From Actinomycetes bacterium (GTDB taxonomy: Bacteria > Actinomycetota > Actinomycetes > Propionibacteriales > Nocardioidaceae): a stretch of 38,449 nt of DNA. The notes below the pieces were generated by a model. The model was not told where the DNA came from, did not search any database, and worked only from the letters and a program-made list of their open reading frames with translations. The stretch spans positions 1 through 38,449 of the forward strand of contig JAUILS010000007.1 in NCBI GenBank assembly GCA_030432975.1, read 5' to 3'. A program made the translations under genes and the position numbers. This document shows, piece by piece, positions 5,053-9,501 of this stretch (position 1 is its first letter; every line of letters starts with the position of its first letter).

Positions 5053-5571
5053 ATGGTCTCGGCCCGTCGTACGTCCCTGCCCGTGTCCGCGCTGGTCGCG
5101 GTCGTCGCCCTGATGGTGGCGCTGCTTCCGGCGGGCACCGCCTCCGCGACCCCCGCTCCCCCGGCGGAGCGGCAGCCGGCGGCCACCGCCCGGACGGTGA
5201 CGCTCAAGCCCGCCCTGCAGAACGTCCTGAAGCGGGTCAACAAGGTGCGCCGCAACCACGGCCGCAAGCCGCTGCGGGTGACCCACTGCCTGACCAAGAA
5301 GGTCGCCCAACCCTGGGCGCGGCACATGGCCGACACCGGCGACTTCGCGCACCGCGACCTCAGCAAGGTCTTCAAGATCTGCCCCTCGCTGACCATGGTG
5401 GGCGAGAACATCGCCGCCGGCCAGCCCACGGCCAAGGCCGTGATGAAGGCCTGGATGGGCTCGAAGGGACACCGCCGCAACATCCTCAACAAGCGCTACC
5501 GCAAGATCGGGCTGGGGCTGGCCCGCGACGCCGACGGCCGGCCCTACTGGGTGCAGAACTTCGGCCGCTGA
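5053..5571 (+). CDS. Secreted CAP-domain (SCP/PR-1-like) protein
   Basis: A 172-residue exported protein. Residues 1-33 are a Sec-type signal peptide (VSARRTS, hydrophobic core, then TASATP with probable cleavage after an Ala). The mature part is a bacterial CAP domain (YkwD type): a helix with VNKVRRNHG, the conserved HMADTGDFAHR carrying a metal/active-site His, MVGENIA, WMGSKGHRRNIL with the second His, and a closing GLGLARDADGRPYWVQNFG. Two cysteines (in THCLTKK and KICPS) can form a disulphide. Bacterial CAP proteins are extracellular; their biochemical activity is mostly undefined. It appears monocistronic, with a terminator-like hairpin three bases after the stop. Confidence 0.92.
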   Translation: MVSARRTSLPVSALVAVVALMVALLPAGTASATPAPPAERQPAATARTVTLKPALQNVLKRVNKVRRNHGRKPLRVTHCLTKKVAQPWARHMADTGDFAHRDLSKVFKICPSLTMVGENIAAGQPTAKAVMKAWMGSKGHRRNILNKRYRKIGLGLARDADGRPYWVQNFGR

Positions 5572-5573
5572 CC

Positions 5574-5593
5574 CGGCCCGGGCGGCCCGGCCG
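5574..5593 (+). terminator. Hairpin after the CAP gene
   Basis: CGGCCCGGG and CCCGGCCG pair as an eight-base-pair stem with one bulged C and a CGG loop. There is no T-tract. Confidence 0.45.
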
Positions 5594-5605
5594 CGTCGAC
5601 TGGGC

Positions 5606-5627
5606 GGTATCTCATATCTGAGATACC
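5606..5627. promoter_or_regulatory. Perfect inverted repeat abutting the XRE-MurA start codon
   Basis: GGTATCTCA, four-base centre TATC, TGAGATACC: perfect nine-base arms. The right arm ends at the base before GTG 5628, and the element contains TATCTG/GATACC sequences that could serve as the -10 box. The next gene encodes an XRE-type DNA-binding domain, so this is the likely autoregulatory operator. Confidence 0.75.
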
Positions 5628-7163
5628 GTGATCGGCATGACGGAGGACTACAAGGACCGGATCGGCAACCTGATCCGTGACGCGCGCAAGCACCGCGGCC
5701 TCACCCAGGCCCAGCTGGCCGACCTCCTGGCCACCAGCCAGAGCGCCATCAACCGCATCGAGAAGGGTCACCAGAACCTCTCCCTGGAGATGCTGGCGCG
5801 GATCGGCGCGGCCCTCGACAGCGAGATCGTGGCGCTCGGCGCCGGGCCGACCCACCTGCGCGTGACCGGACCGACCCGGCTGTCCGGCAGCATCGACGTC
5901 AAGACCTCCAAGAACGCCGGGGTGGCGCTGCTCTGCGCGTCGCTGCTCAACCGCGGCCGGACCACGCTGCGCAAGGTGGCCCGGATCGAGGAGGTCAACC
6001 GGCTGCTCGAGGTGCTCAACTCCCTCGGCGTGCAGACCCGCTGGCTCAACGACGACAACGACCTGGAGATCGTGCCGCCCCGCGAGCTCGACCTCGACCA
6101 CATCGACGAGGACGCCGCGCGGCGCACCCGCTCGGTGATCATGTTCCTCGGCCCGCTGATGCACCGCACCGACACCTTCGAGCTGCCCTATGCCGGCGGC
6201 TGCAACCTCGGCACCCGCACCGTCGAGCCGCACATGGCCGCGCTGCGGCCCTTCGGCCTGGAGGTCAAGGCCACCGACGGCAGCTACCACGCCACCGTCA
6301 ACCGAGCGCTCGAGCCGGCCCGCCCGATCGTGCTCACCGAGCGCGGCGACACCGTCACCGAGAACGCCCTGATGGCCGCGGCGCTGCACCCCGGCACCAC
6401 CGTGATCCGCAACGCCTCGTCCAACTACATGGTCCAGGACCTCTGCTTCTTCCTGCAGAAGCTCGGCGTGCGGGTCGAGGGGGTCGGCAGCACCACGCTG
6501 TCCGTGACCGGCCTGGAGACCATCGACGTCGACGTCGACTACGCCCCGAGCGAGGACCCGATCGAGGCGATGTCGCTGCTGGCGGCCGCCATCGTGACCC
6601 AGTCGTCCATCACGATCAGCCGGGTGCCGATCGAGTTCCTCGAGATCGAGCTGGCGCTGCTGGAGGAGATGGGCTTCGAGTACACCCGCTCCGAGGAGTA
6701 CCTCGCCCGCAACGGCCAGACGCGGCTCGTCGACCTGACGACCCGCCCGTCCGAGCTCCACGCGCCGCTGGACAAGATCCACCCGATGCCGTTCCCCGGC
6801 CTCAACATCGACAACCTGCCGTTCTTCGCGGTGATCGCGGCGGTGGCCGAGGGGCAGACGCTGCTGCACGACTGGGTCTACGAGAACCGCGCGATCTACC
6901 TCACCGAGCTGACCAAGCTGGGCGCCCAGGTCAAGCTGCTCGACCCGCACCGGGTGATGATCGAGGGCCCGACGCACTGGTCCGGCACCGAGATCGTCTG
7001 CCCGCCGGCGCTGCGGCCGGCCGTGGTCATCCTGCTGGCGATGCTGGCCTCCAAGGGCACCTCCGTGCTGCGGTCGACGTACGTCATCCACCGCGGCTAC
7101 GAGGACCTCGCCGAGCGGCTCAACCACCTCGGCGCCCAGATCGAGCCCTTCCGCGACATCTGA
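5628..7163 (+). CDS. XRE helix-turn-helix fused to MurA-like enolpyruvyl transferase
   Basis: A 511-residue two-domain protein. Residues about 12-66 form a Cro/CI-type helix-turn-helix (IRDARKHRGLTQAQLADLL, SQSAINRIEKG). Residues 76-508 are a full EPSP-synthase/MurA fold, which in MurA transfers enolpyruvate from PEP to UDP-N-acetylglucosamine in the first committed step of peptidoglycan synthesis. The known active-site residues of E. coli MurA have counterparts: Lys95-Asn96 (SKN), Arg168 (TRS), catalytic Cys192 and Arg197 (GGCNLGTR), an Asp in NIDNLPFF, and arginines in ENRAIY, ALRPAV and HRGYED. It is therefore probably catalytic, perhaps a second MurA. GTG 5628 is chosen because it directly follows the operator; ATG 5637 is possible. 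A GNAT gene follows after 11 bases. Confidence 0.88.
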   Translation: MIGMTEDYKDRIGNLIRDARKHRGLTQAQLADLLATSQSAINRIEKGHQNLSLEMLARIGAALDSEIVALGAGPTHLRVTGPTRLSGSIDVKTSKNAGVALLCASLLNRGRTTLRKVARIEEVNRLLEVLNSLGVQTRWLNDDNDLEIVPPRELDLDHIDEDAARRTRSVIMFLGPLMHRTDTFELPYAGGCNLGTRTVEPHMAALRPFGLEVKATDGSYHATVNRALEPARPIVLTERGDTVTENALMAAALHPGTTVIRNASSNYMVQDLCFFLQKLGVRVEGVGSTTLSVTGLETIDVDVDYAPSEDPIEAMSLLAAAIVTQSSITISRVPIEFLEIELALLEEMGFEYTRSEEYLARNGQTRLVDLTTRPSELHAPLDKIHPMPFPGLNIDNLPFFAVIAAVAEGQTLLHDWVYENRAIYLTELTKLGAQVKLLDPHRVMIEGPTHWSGTEIVCPPALRPAVVILLAMLASKGTSVLRSTYVIHRGYEDLAERLNHLGAQIEPFRDI

Positions 7164-7174
7164 GCGGGCCGGGG

Positions 7175-7633
7175 GTGGAGATCCGGCGCGACGACCCGCT
7201 GCGCGCCGACGTGCTGGCGCTCCTCGAGGAGCACCTGATGGAGATGCGCGCCATCAGCCCGCCCGAGAGCGTCCACGCGCTCGACGCCGCGGCGCTCACG
7301 GCTCCGTCGGTCACCTTCTGGACGCTGCGCGAGGGCGGCCTGCTGCTCGGCTGCGGCGCGCTCACCGAGCTCGACCACACCCACGGGGAGGTCAAGTCGA
7401 TGCGCACCACGCCGGCCGCTCGCGGGCGAGGCGTGGCCACCACCCTGCTGCGGCACGTGCTCGACGAGGCGCGCGGGCGGGGCTACCGGCGGGTCAGCCT
7501 CGAGACCGGCAGCCAGCCGCACTTCGCTCCCGCACGCCGGTTGTACGCGCGGCACGGCTTCCTGCCGTGCGGGCCGTTCGGGGACTACGGGCCGGACCCG
7601 CACAGCGCGTTCTTCACGCTGGCGCTCTCGTGA
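7175..7633 (+). CDS. GNAT family N-acetyltransferase
   Basis: A 152-residue GNAT acetyltransferase. The acetyl-CoA-binding loop is clear: KSMRTTPAARGRGVATTLL, with the RGRGVA pyrophosphate loop followed by the helix LRHVLDEARGRGY, then strand VSLETGSQ and the ARRLYARHGF motif. This arrangement resembles the PhnO/YjhQ-like cytosolic enzymes with small-molecule substrates; the actual substrate is unknown. GTG 7175 begins 11 bases after the XRE-MurA stop, so the two are probably co-transcribed. This could hint at an amino-sugar or cell-wall link but does not prove one. A strong hairpin follows the stop. Confidence 0.88.
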   Translation: MEIRRDDPLRADVLALLEEHLMEMRAISPPESVHALDAAALTAPSVTFWTLREGGLLLGCGALTELDHTHGEVKSMRTTPAARGRGVATTLLRHVLDEARGRGYRRVSLETGSQPHFAPARRLYARHGFLPCGPFGDYGPDPHSAFFTLALS

Positions 7634-8058: not shown

Positions 8059-8100
8059 CGGCCGGCGTTGCCCCCGTCGCCACCGAGAAAGGGACGAGCC

Positions 8101-9501
8101 ATGAGACCCTCCGACGCTCCGCCGCCGGACGGCGTCGCCAACCTGCAGCCGCTCTGGGAGTCTCGGAAGAAGGAGCAGAAGGCCTGGTACTGGTACGACT
8201 GGGCGAACTCCGCCTACGTCACCACGATCGCCACGGTGCTGCTGGCGCCGTACCTCATCTCGGTCGCCGAGCGCGACGCCTGCGGCTTCGTCAGCGACGA
8301 GGCCACCAAGTGCACCGCCGACCTGAGCCTCTTCGGGCTCGCCGTCTCGCCGGGGTCGCTGGCGGCCTACACCGTGGCCGCCGCCACCGTGTTCTCCGCG
8401 TTCGTCCTCCCCATCGTCGGCGCGGCCGCGGACCGGTCGGCGAAGAAGAAGAACATCATGGCCGGCTTCGCGTGGGCGGGCAGCATCGCCGCCGCGATGC
8501 TGTTCTTCGTCACGGGCACCAACTGGCAGCTCGGCGTGGCGATGATGTTCATCGCCAACCTCTGCCTGGGCGCCTCACTGGTGGTCTATGACGCGATCCT
8601 CTGCGAGATCGCCGGCCCCGACGAGCGCGACCAGGTCTCGTCCCGGGGCTGGGCGCTGGGCTACCTCGGCGGCGGGCTGCTGCTCGCGGTGAACCTCGCC
8701 CTGGTGACCCTGCTCCCCTTCGGCCTCGACACCGCGATGGCGGTGCGGATCAGCATGCTGTCGGCGGCGATCTGGTGGGCGGCGTTCACGATCATCCCCT
8801 ACCGCGGCATCCGCAACCACGAGCCGCGCGCGGTCGAGCGGGAGCCGGGTGGGCTGGTGCGCCAGAGCTTCGGCCAGCTGTTCGCGACGCTCGGCGACAT
8901 GCGCAACTACCCGCAGACGCTGACCTTCCTGGTCGCCTACCTGTTCTACAACGACGGCATCCAGACCGTGATCACCCAGGCGTCGACGTACGGCGAGAAG
9001 CAGCTCGGCTTCGAGACCAGCGTGCTCATCGGGACCATCCTGCTCGTGCAGTTCGTGGCCTTCGGCGGCGCGCTGCTGTTCGGGCGCGTCGCGGCACGCC
9101 TCGGCAGCCACAAGGTCATCCTCGTCGGGATCGGGATCTGGTCGCTGATCGTGATCGTCAGCTTCTTCCTGCCCGAGAAGAACATCGGGCTGTTCCTGCT
9201 GCTGGCCGTCGGCATCGGCATCGTGCTGGGCGGCACCCAGGCGCTGTCGCGGTCGTTCTTCAGCCAGCTGATCCCGCCCGGCCGCGAGGCGGAGTACTTC
9301 TCGCTGTACCAGGCGGCCGAGCGCGGCACGAGCTGGTTCGGCGCGGTCGTGTTCGGCATCGTCCACCAGGTCACCGACTCCTACCGCCCGGCGATCCTCG
9401 CGCTGATCGTCTTCTTCGTCCTCGGCGGGCTGCTGCTGGTCAAGGTCGACCCCAAGCGGGCCATCCAGGAGGCCGGGAACCCGCTCCCCCAGGTGGTCTG
9501 A
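8101..9501 (+). CDS. MFS transporter of the Atg22/UMF1 type
   Basis: A 466-residue membrane protein with about 12 hydrophobic helices. The segment WYWYDWANSAYVTTIATVLL near residue 28 is the hallmark opening of the UMF1/Atg22-like branch of the major facilitator superfamily, whose eukaryotic members export amino acids from vacuoles. Other features are ADRSAKKKN in the loop between helices 2 and 3 and GGTQALSRSFFSQLIPPGREAEYF in the second half, also typical of this branch. ATG 8101 has GAGAAAGGGACGAG upstream, so the 11-codon upstream extension is rejected. The bacterial substrate is not established. A GC-rich hairpin lies 45 bases after the stop. Confidence 0.85.
   Translation: MRPSDAPPPDGVANLQPLWESRKKEQKAWYWYDWANSAYVTTIATVLLAPYLISVAERDACGFVSDEATKCTADLSLFGLAVSPGSLAAYTVAAATVFSAFVLPIVGAAADRSAKKKNIMAGFAWAGSIAAAMLFFVTGTNWQLGVAMMFIANLCLGASLVVYDAILCEIAGPDERDQVSSRGWALGYLGGGLLLAVNLALVTLLPFGLDTAMAVRISMLSAAIWWAAFTIIPYRGIRNHEPRAVEREPGGLVRQSFGQLFATLGDMRNYPQTLTFLVAYLFYNDGIQTVITQASTYGEKQLGFETSVLIGTILLVQFVAFGGALLFGRVAARLGSHKVILVGIGIWSLIVIVSFFLPEKNIGLFLLLAVGIGIVLGGTQALSRSFFSQLIPPGREAEYFSLYQAAERGTSWFGAVVFGIVHQVTDSYRPAILALIVFFVLGGLLLVKVDPKRAIQEAGNPLPQVV

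Follow-up and report, generated by a model that had tools for sequence, protein, structure and literature searches.

A MurA-like enzyme fused to a HipB-type helix-turn-helix domain and the conserved operator through which it probably represses its own gene

MurA, the enzyme of the first committed step in building the cell wall, acts as the gate to peptidoglycan synthesis and is the target of fosfomycin; the controls known for it operate mostly at the protein level, by proteolysis or through activator proteins. A gene in the 38,449-nucleotide stretch of actinomycete DNA analyzed here (contig JAUILS010000007.1, referred to below as the window) raises the question of whether a MurA could also control its own expression. 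The gene encodes a MurA-like enzyme joined to a DNA-binding domain, and a perfect inverted repeat lies immediately ahead of it. An earlier note on this DNA, made from the letters of the window, had proposed that the enzyme is the repressor of its own gene, that the repeat is its operator and that the catalytic domain may read UDP-GlcNAc or PEP. To weigh that proposal, we consider what each half of the protein is likely to do, how the repeat is conserved and placed, and which protein is likely to occupy it.

The fusion gene, which we refer to as XRE-MurA, occupies positions 5637..7163 of the forward strand and encodes 508 amino acids plus a stop codon, as delimited by domain profiles, orthologues and an AlphaFold2 model. 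Residues are numbered below from ATG 5637 or from GTG 5628, the start codon of the earlier note, and each number is marked accordingly. The combination of an XRE helix-turn-helix with a MurA fold was described correctly in that note. The N-terminal domain (5673..5828, forward strand; residues 16-67, GTG numbering) matches Pfam HTH_3 with 49.3 bits against a cut-off of 23, and is of the kind found in HipB, Y4mF and C proteins. Its relatives in the PDB include C.BclI (E 1.6e-6), C.AhdI (2.3e-5) and HipB(Lp) (7.8e-5), with only a weak match to E. coli HipB (0.11), and its score of 60.3 bits against TIGR03070 (couple_hipB) lies below the cut-off of 71.65. From its membership of the XRE family, we take the segment TSQSAINRIE (5733..5762, forward strand) to be the region of the recognition helix. 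The remainder of the protein matches the EPSP_synthase/MurA profile (residues 76-506, GTG numbering), and the AlphaFold2 model and VIA-align place the MurA (UDP-GlcNAc enolpyruvyl transferase) domain at 5847..7160 of the forward strand (residues 71-508, ATG numbering). The suggestion that the fusion may exist in other actinomycetes also proved right. It occurs widely in the class, in 50 of a sample of 158 genomes (E <= 1e-60), and was found in 12 of 246 genomes of the phylum (E <= 1e-80), none of them labelled as outside the class.

The fusion gene is followed in the window by a gene for a GNAT acetyltransferase (Pfam Acetyltransf_1; 7175-7633), which starts 11 bases past the stop codon and is perhaps co-transcribed with the fusion gene; no GNAT neighbor was noticed in six orthologue loci scanned with a crude ORF caller. 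Further on lies a gene for an Atg22-like MFS transporter (Pfam ATG22; 8068-9501), and proteins that look similar by eye are encoded downstream in two orthologue loci, L001 (6124-7512) and L049 (5399-7369).

The model of the fusion protein, built from a 45-sequence alignment, has a mean pLDDT of 88.6, and VIA-align superimposed it on MurA (1eyn) with a Z score of 46.1 over 415 residues at an rmsd of 2.0 Å. The same model gave Z 40.7 against NikO and at most 36.2 against EPSP synthases, so that MurA structures match best, most of them scoring above both. For the catalytic residues of E. coli MurA we assume the numbers K22, N23, R91, C115, R120, D305, R331, R371 and R397. The equivalents of the first five are invariant in 184 of 184 aligned XRE-MurA rows, those of D305 and R331 are present in 183 and those of R371 and R397 in 182, the remainder being gaps. 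In the protein of the window they include K95, N96 and C192 (GTG numbering) together with the arginines, the very residues singled out in the earlier note, and the codon of the catalytic cysteine (C189 in ATG numbering) lies at 6201..6203 of the forward strand. The fusion thus shares with canonical MurA (TIGR01072) the whole EPSP-synthase-type fold, at Z of about 46, and the catalytic Lys, Asn, Cys and Arg, and it differs in its N-terminal helix-turn-helix, its position in a separate clade and an altered UDP-phosphate loop. In that loop, S162-V163-G164 of the E. coli enzyme is replaced by G-D-T, and D369 is not conserved either, with P or A in its place. The score against the TIGR01072 murA equivalog model (314.4 bits) falls short of the cut-off of 392.7, and that against the broader subfamily model PRK09369 (328.6) exceeds its cut-off of 297. 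Because the murA cut-off is missed and both the loop and D369 are changed, the identity of the substrate is something that we infer, namely that the fusion protein would transfer enolpyruvate to UDP-GlcNAc.

A phylogenetic tree places XRE-MurA in a clade apart from canonical actinobacterial MurA; AroA and E. coli MurA sit on long branches in this tree, and the split between those two groups is the only one that we use. The position of Cys115, the residue that fosfomycin targets, also separates the groups, since it is Asp in eight of the eight canonical actinobacterial MurAs compared (L084-L087 and L098-L101) and Cys in all 184 XRE-MurA rows. Among 118 genomes of the window's genus (taken as Nocardioides from its named relatives), no canonical MurA above the murA cut-off was found; at E <= 1e-20 each genome yields just one MurA-like gene. 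MurB matches were present in 40 of 40 genus genomes, 37 of them over the MurB cut-off. As no canonical enzyme was found in the 118 genomes, the fusion has apparently taken its place in the genus, and, as far as profile searches can recognize one, it is the sole MurA of Nocardioides, so the protein is presumably essential there unless an unrelated enzyme stands in for it. Since the fusion is the only form found in Nocardioides and the cysteine is kept, these bacteria may be sensitive to fosfomycin at the target. In the family, a match above the murA cut-off was found in 20 of 61 genomes, and the distribution suggests that canonical MurA was lost in favor of the fusion, perhaps more than once.

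The repeat ahead of the gene, GGTATCTCA-N4-TGAGATACC, lies at exactly 5606-5627, where it had been reported, and its perfect arms extend by one more base on each side. The full element (5605..5628, no strand) therefore consists of two 10-bp arms, at 5605-5614 and 5619-5628, around an N4 center. Of 18 inverted pairs listed in the interval 5300-5760, this is the sole 100% complementary pair of at least 10 nt, in agreement with the claim that it is the only perfect long inverted repeat in the leader; the other 100% pair has arms of 8 nt that are 288 nt apart. The conserved core, TATCTCA-N4-TGAGATA, occupies 5608-5625. In 100 shuffles of the window the number of matches to the palindrome expected by chance, at up to three mismatches, was 0, and in the 3.43-Mb genome of the window the pattern occurs once at up to two mismatches. 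A gene for a CAP-domain (YkwD-like) protein (5053-5571) ends 36 bases before the core begins at 5608.

Conservation of the core was assessed over 184 distinct upstream regions, which remained after removal of 15 loci (copies of the window, other genes and pattern hits) and 17 duplicates. A scan of named genomes contributed the best 80 of at least 590 relatives, at 75-90% identity, a set that leans to close relatives, and further orthologue loci were taken from searches of family, class and genus genomes. The 80 named loci come from Nocardioides, Aeromicrobium, Marmoricola, Mumia, Kribbella, Brachybacterium, Streptomyces and metagenome-assembled genomes (MAGs). Absence of the repeat upstream of orthologues had been named beforehand as the outcome that would count against the proposal, and we found TATCTCA-N4-TGAGATA, at three or fewer mismatches of 14, in 181 of the 184 regions (the window included) at nearly fixed spacing. 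The core is free of mismatches in 92 regions, and has one in 78, two in nine, three in two, four in one and seven in two. Control windows taken from the same loci numbered 1600; the best match had four or more mismatches in 1598 of them, seven being the commonest value, and no mismatch in two. These two are untraced, and five of the 80 loci have the start of the gene at another place, which left its own site unmasked. Together, the shuffles, the conservation and the control windows led us to reject a chance palindrome.

When the regions are aligned on the site, positions in the arms carry 1.2-2.0 bits of information and most flanking positions less than 0.5, and the N4 center, which is AT-rich DNA, is conserved in part (0.4-1.5 bits). 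Because the rows share common descent their bits are not independent, and the result is unchanged in the 147 rows with less than 80% identity over 78 nt. In many orthologues the two arms fail to match at one position or more, for example in 26 loci with TATCTCA on the left and TGAGTTA on the right, and one other family (f16) has mostly TAACTCA-N4-TGAGATA at the same location.

The site is also nearly private to this gene. At up to one mismatch, exactly one site was found in 55 of 61 family genomes, that of the window included, and the reversed pattern used as a control gave none. All 55 sites lie 223-242 bp upstream of the MurA domain of the XRE-MurA gene. In the six family genomes that lack a site at this stringency, the locus has two mismatches (L092, L095 and L097), three (L096), four (L093) or seven (L094). 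Across the sample of 158 class genomes (rows counted by eye), 25 of the 50 fusion-bearing genomes have the exact 16-base core at the XRE-MurA gene. Copies away from the gene number three in these 50 genomes and 17 in the other 108, which is the background level, and nothing at exact-core stringency points to a regulon. We therefore rejected a wider regulon, there being no excess of sites away from the gene either at up to one mismatch in the 61 family genomes or for the exact 16-base core in the 158 class genomes.

Placement of the palindrome relative to the predicted promoter is similarly constrained. In 179 of 181 orthologues a T lies four bases past the core and completes a TAnnnT motif whose TA is the last TA of the palindrome. 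In the window this -10 box reads TACCGT (5624..5629, forward strand), its TA being common to the right operator arm. Upstream conservation is weaker: among 147 non-redundant regions, 87 have T at -24 and 106 have G at -22, corresponding to a weak TTG 16 nt upstream of the -10 box in the family. The window has GGG instead, and its -35 position (5602..5607, forward strand; GGGCGG) contains no recognizable -35 element. An in-frame ATG or GTG follows the palindrome by 9-13 nt in 180 of 181 orthologues (by 11 nt in 124 of 181), and a Shine-Dalgarno-like 4-mer lies between palindrome and start in 18 of 180 gaps. A TANNNT motif about 12 bp upstream of the start codon is a mark of leaderless genes and is frequent in Actinobacteria, according to the available part of the source (PMC3160421).

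From this spacing and the scarcity of Shine-Dalgarno-like sequences, ATG 5637 (5637..5639, forward strand) is most likely the true start codon and also the transcription start of a leaderless mRNA. The GTG at 5628 given as the start in the earlier note overlaps the -10 box, and an in-frame GTG or TTG is found at that place in 58 of 181 orthologues; we rejected it in favor of ATG 5637. The conserved core ends 11 bases before this ATG and covers the promoter spacer and the first two bases of the -10 box. The promoter and transcription start at this locus are predictions from these patterns. Because the left arm lies outside the -10 box, promoter function alone does not account for the conservation of the arms.

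If the fused helix-turn-helix reads the palindrome, changes in one would be expected to accompany changes in the other. The recognition helix carries the motif [ST][ST]Q in 182 of 184 proteins, and the two exceptions, MDEGAV (L094) and MTEQDI (L135), are also the only two loci without the palindrome (seven mismatches each). The two loci come from different families by their search labels, and the losses are probably two events. In L094 the left arm is gone and the right half, GAGATACCGT, which is needed as promoter, is kept. In L135 (genome G113) the helix-turn-helix is rewritten, the operator is missing and the open frame is 394 aa long, with the match ending at residue 386 of 508; this gene is possibly broken or split. 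In an Aeromicrobium locus (L057) the helix reads TTQSVV and the operator is changed on both arms, to TATCGCA-N4-TGCGATA. Among 49 genomes of that genus, a site of this type at zero mismatches was found only in the L057 genome, and one other genome has a one-mismatch match on a different contig from its XRE-MurA. The helix of L179 is altered (SQNVVS), yet its operator is unchanged, and two loci with TSQGAVTR differ from each other, L093 having a blurred site with four mismatches and L133 a symmetric variant. Taken together, L057, L094 and L135 argue for covariation of helix and operator, L179 argues against it, and L093 and L133 are mixed, suggesting a relationship that is not one-to-one.

The site also has a known counterpart. 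E. coli HipB represses its own operon and has the operator TATCC-N8-GGATA, as described in the accessible portion of PMC3920265, and the XRE-MurA site, TATCT-N8-AGATA, has the same architecture. XRE-MurA therefore resembles HipB-type XRE repressors (TIGR03070 Y4mF/couple_hipB, HipB, and the restriction-modification controllers C.BclI and C.AhdI) both in its class of helix-turn-helix and in the operator plan TATCY-N8-RGATA. It differs from them in that its helix-turn-helix is fused to a metabolic enzyme and scores under the TIGR03070 cut-off.

The best reading of these data, strongly supported by comparative genomics and one that we hold with considerable confidence, is that XRE-MurA is a dedicated autorepressor enzyme with a single target. 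The enzyme-as-repressor proposal of the earlier note thus stands as regards the fusion, an operator at 181 of 184 loci, its single copy and its loss together with the helix, and falls as regards the start at GTG 5628. What the genomes themselves show is the fusion with its catalytic core residues, a conserved and unique palindrome placed just ahead of the gene, the loss of that palindrome together with the helix, and no other MurA that we could find; dimer formation, DNA binding, repression and catalysis are what we predict from them. We propose that a leaderless TAnnnT promoter drives the gene, with TATCTCA-N4-TGAGATA occupying its 16-nt spacer. The gene's own product would bind this palindrome through a dimer of its HipB-like XRE domain and block RNA polymerase, repressing the gene and holding the level of MurA constant by negative autoregulation. 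In Nocardioides, where the fusion is the only recognizable MurA, the same protein would also have to perform enolpyruvyl transfer. We further speculate, rather tentatively, that DNA binding could be altered by substrate occupancy or by the open or closed state of the MurA domain, with UDP-GlcNAc, PEP and fosfomycin as candidate ligands.

Such a ligand switch is established in the trigger enzymes BirA, PutA and NadR, each of which is an enzyme with its own DNA-binding domain that controls genes of its own pathway. XRE-MurA resembles them in uniting enzyme and DNA-binding domain in one protein. It is unlike them in fold and pathway and in having, at the stringency searched, one operator only, at its own gene. 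Self-repressing enzymes are thus known as a kind, and an example within peptidoglycan synthesis is a new variant.

Other readings of the operator fit the data less well. The site could belong to another regulator, either a separate XRE- or HipB-like protein or a global factor, with the fused helix-turn-helix acting elsewhere or not at all, and the Streptomyces orthologue does have other regulators acting upstream of it, as reported in the available parts of PMC4125116 and PMC8346170. We consider this quite unlikely, since there is one site per genome at the stringency tested, and it lies at the XRE-MurA gene; a separate regulator would need to have a single target in genome after genome. The site is moreover lost with the fused recognition helix at two loci and changed with it at one, and a HipB-type operator suits a HipB-type helix-turn-helix. 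Alternatively, the bound domain might activate, in the manner of MerR, by aiding RNA polymerase across a short 16-nt spacer, which would explain why the palindrome fills the gap between a weak, poorly conserved -35 region and the -10 box. XRE proteins at such promoter positions usually repress, the site overlaps the TA of the -10 box, and domain-profile searches found no MerR domain, making activation very unlikely. That a perfect inverted repeat near a start codon might work as an RNA hairpin in the leader, as an attenuator or in translational control, is extremely improbable, since, with the TAnnnT overlapping the last bases of the palindrome and the start codon at +1, the transcript of this promoter would leave the palindrome out; the AT-rich conservation of the N4 center as DNA and the 18 Shine-Dalgarno-like sequences in 180 gaps argue against it as well.

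A different doubt concerns the enzyme half, which might be an enolpyruvyl transferase that, like NikO, has diverged to use some other acceptor, in which case the helix-turn-helix would control that other pathway. The changes in the UDP-phosphate loop and at D369 and the separate clade agree with this, and NikO also fits the fold. We nevertheless regard it as unlikely, since most MurA structures score above NikO and the EPSP synthases, the catalytic residues are invariant, and the genus has no other recognizable source of UDP-GlcNAc-enolpyruvate although MurB is present.

The autorepressor reading has a bearing on Streptomyces, where the XRE-MurA gene of S. shenzhenensis (L070; 76% identical, operator with one mismatch) adjoins the gene for the AcnA aconitase. 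In S. coelicolor, SCO5998 (murA2) adjoins SCO5999 (acnA), as stated in the available part of PMC12161575, and by synteny we regard Streptomyces murA2 (SCO5998 / SVEN_5810 / vnz_28735) as the orthologue. The sections of the literature available to us describe a second MurA in S. coelicolor and murA2 as a predicted target of DmdR1 (PMC12161575), a BldM-WhiI target (PMC4125116) and a gene whose promoter depends on SigB, a SigB-type sigma factor (PMC8346170), and report that overexpression of murA2 fails to reproduce the phenotype of whiI overexpression (PMC11005364). Since other regulators act on the Streptomyces orthologue, autorepression cannot be the whole story there. The parts of these four papers that we had contain no mention of the helix-turn-helix of murA2 or of an operator of its own, and the corresponding parts of PMC12565409, PMC3920265, PMC3897704, PMC4255298 and PMC3160421 contain no description of a helix-turn-helix-MurA fusion or its operator. 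Among the matches listed in a literature search, judged by titles and the starts of abstracts, no paper dealt with such a fusion or its operator.

For Streptomyces, murA2 would gain an operator that goes unmentioned in the available parts of the papers on its regulation (PMC4125116, PMC8346170, PMC12161575 and PMC11005364). Nocardioides, as an entire genus, appears to depend on a MurA equipped with a repressor domain and with an operator reserved for it. Enzyme, repressor domain and operator would together form a minimal homeostatic circuit open to direct testing, which might double as an internal sensor that responds to UDP-GlcNAc or to inhibition of MurA.
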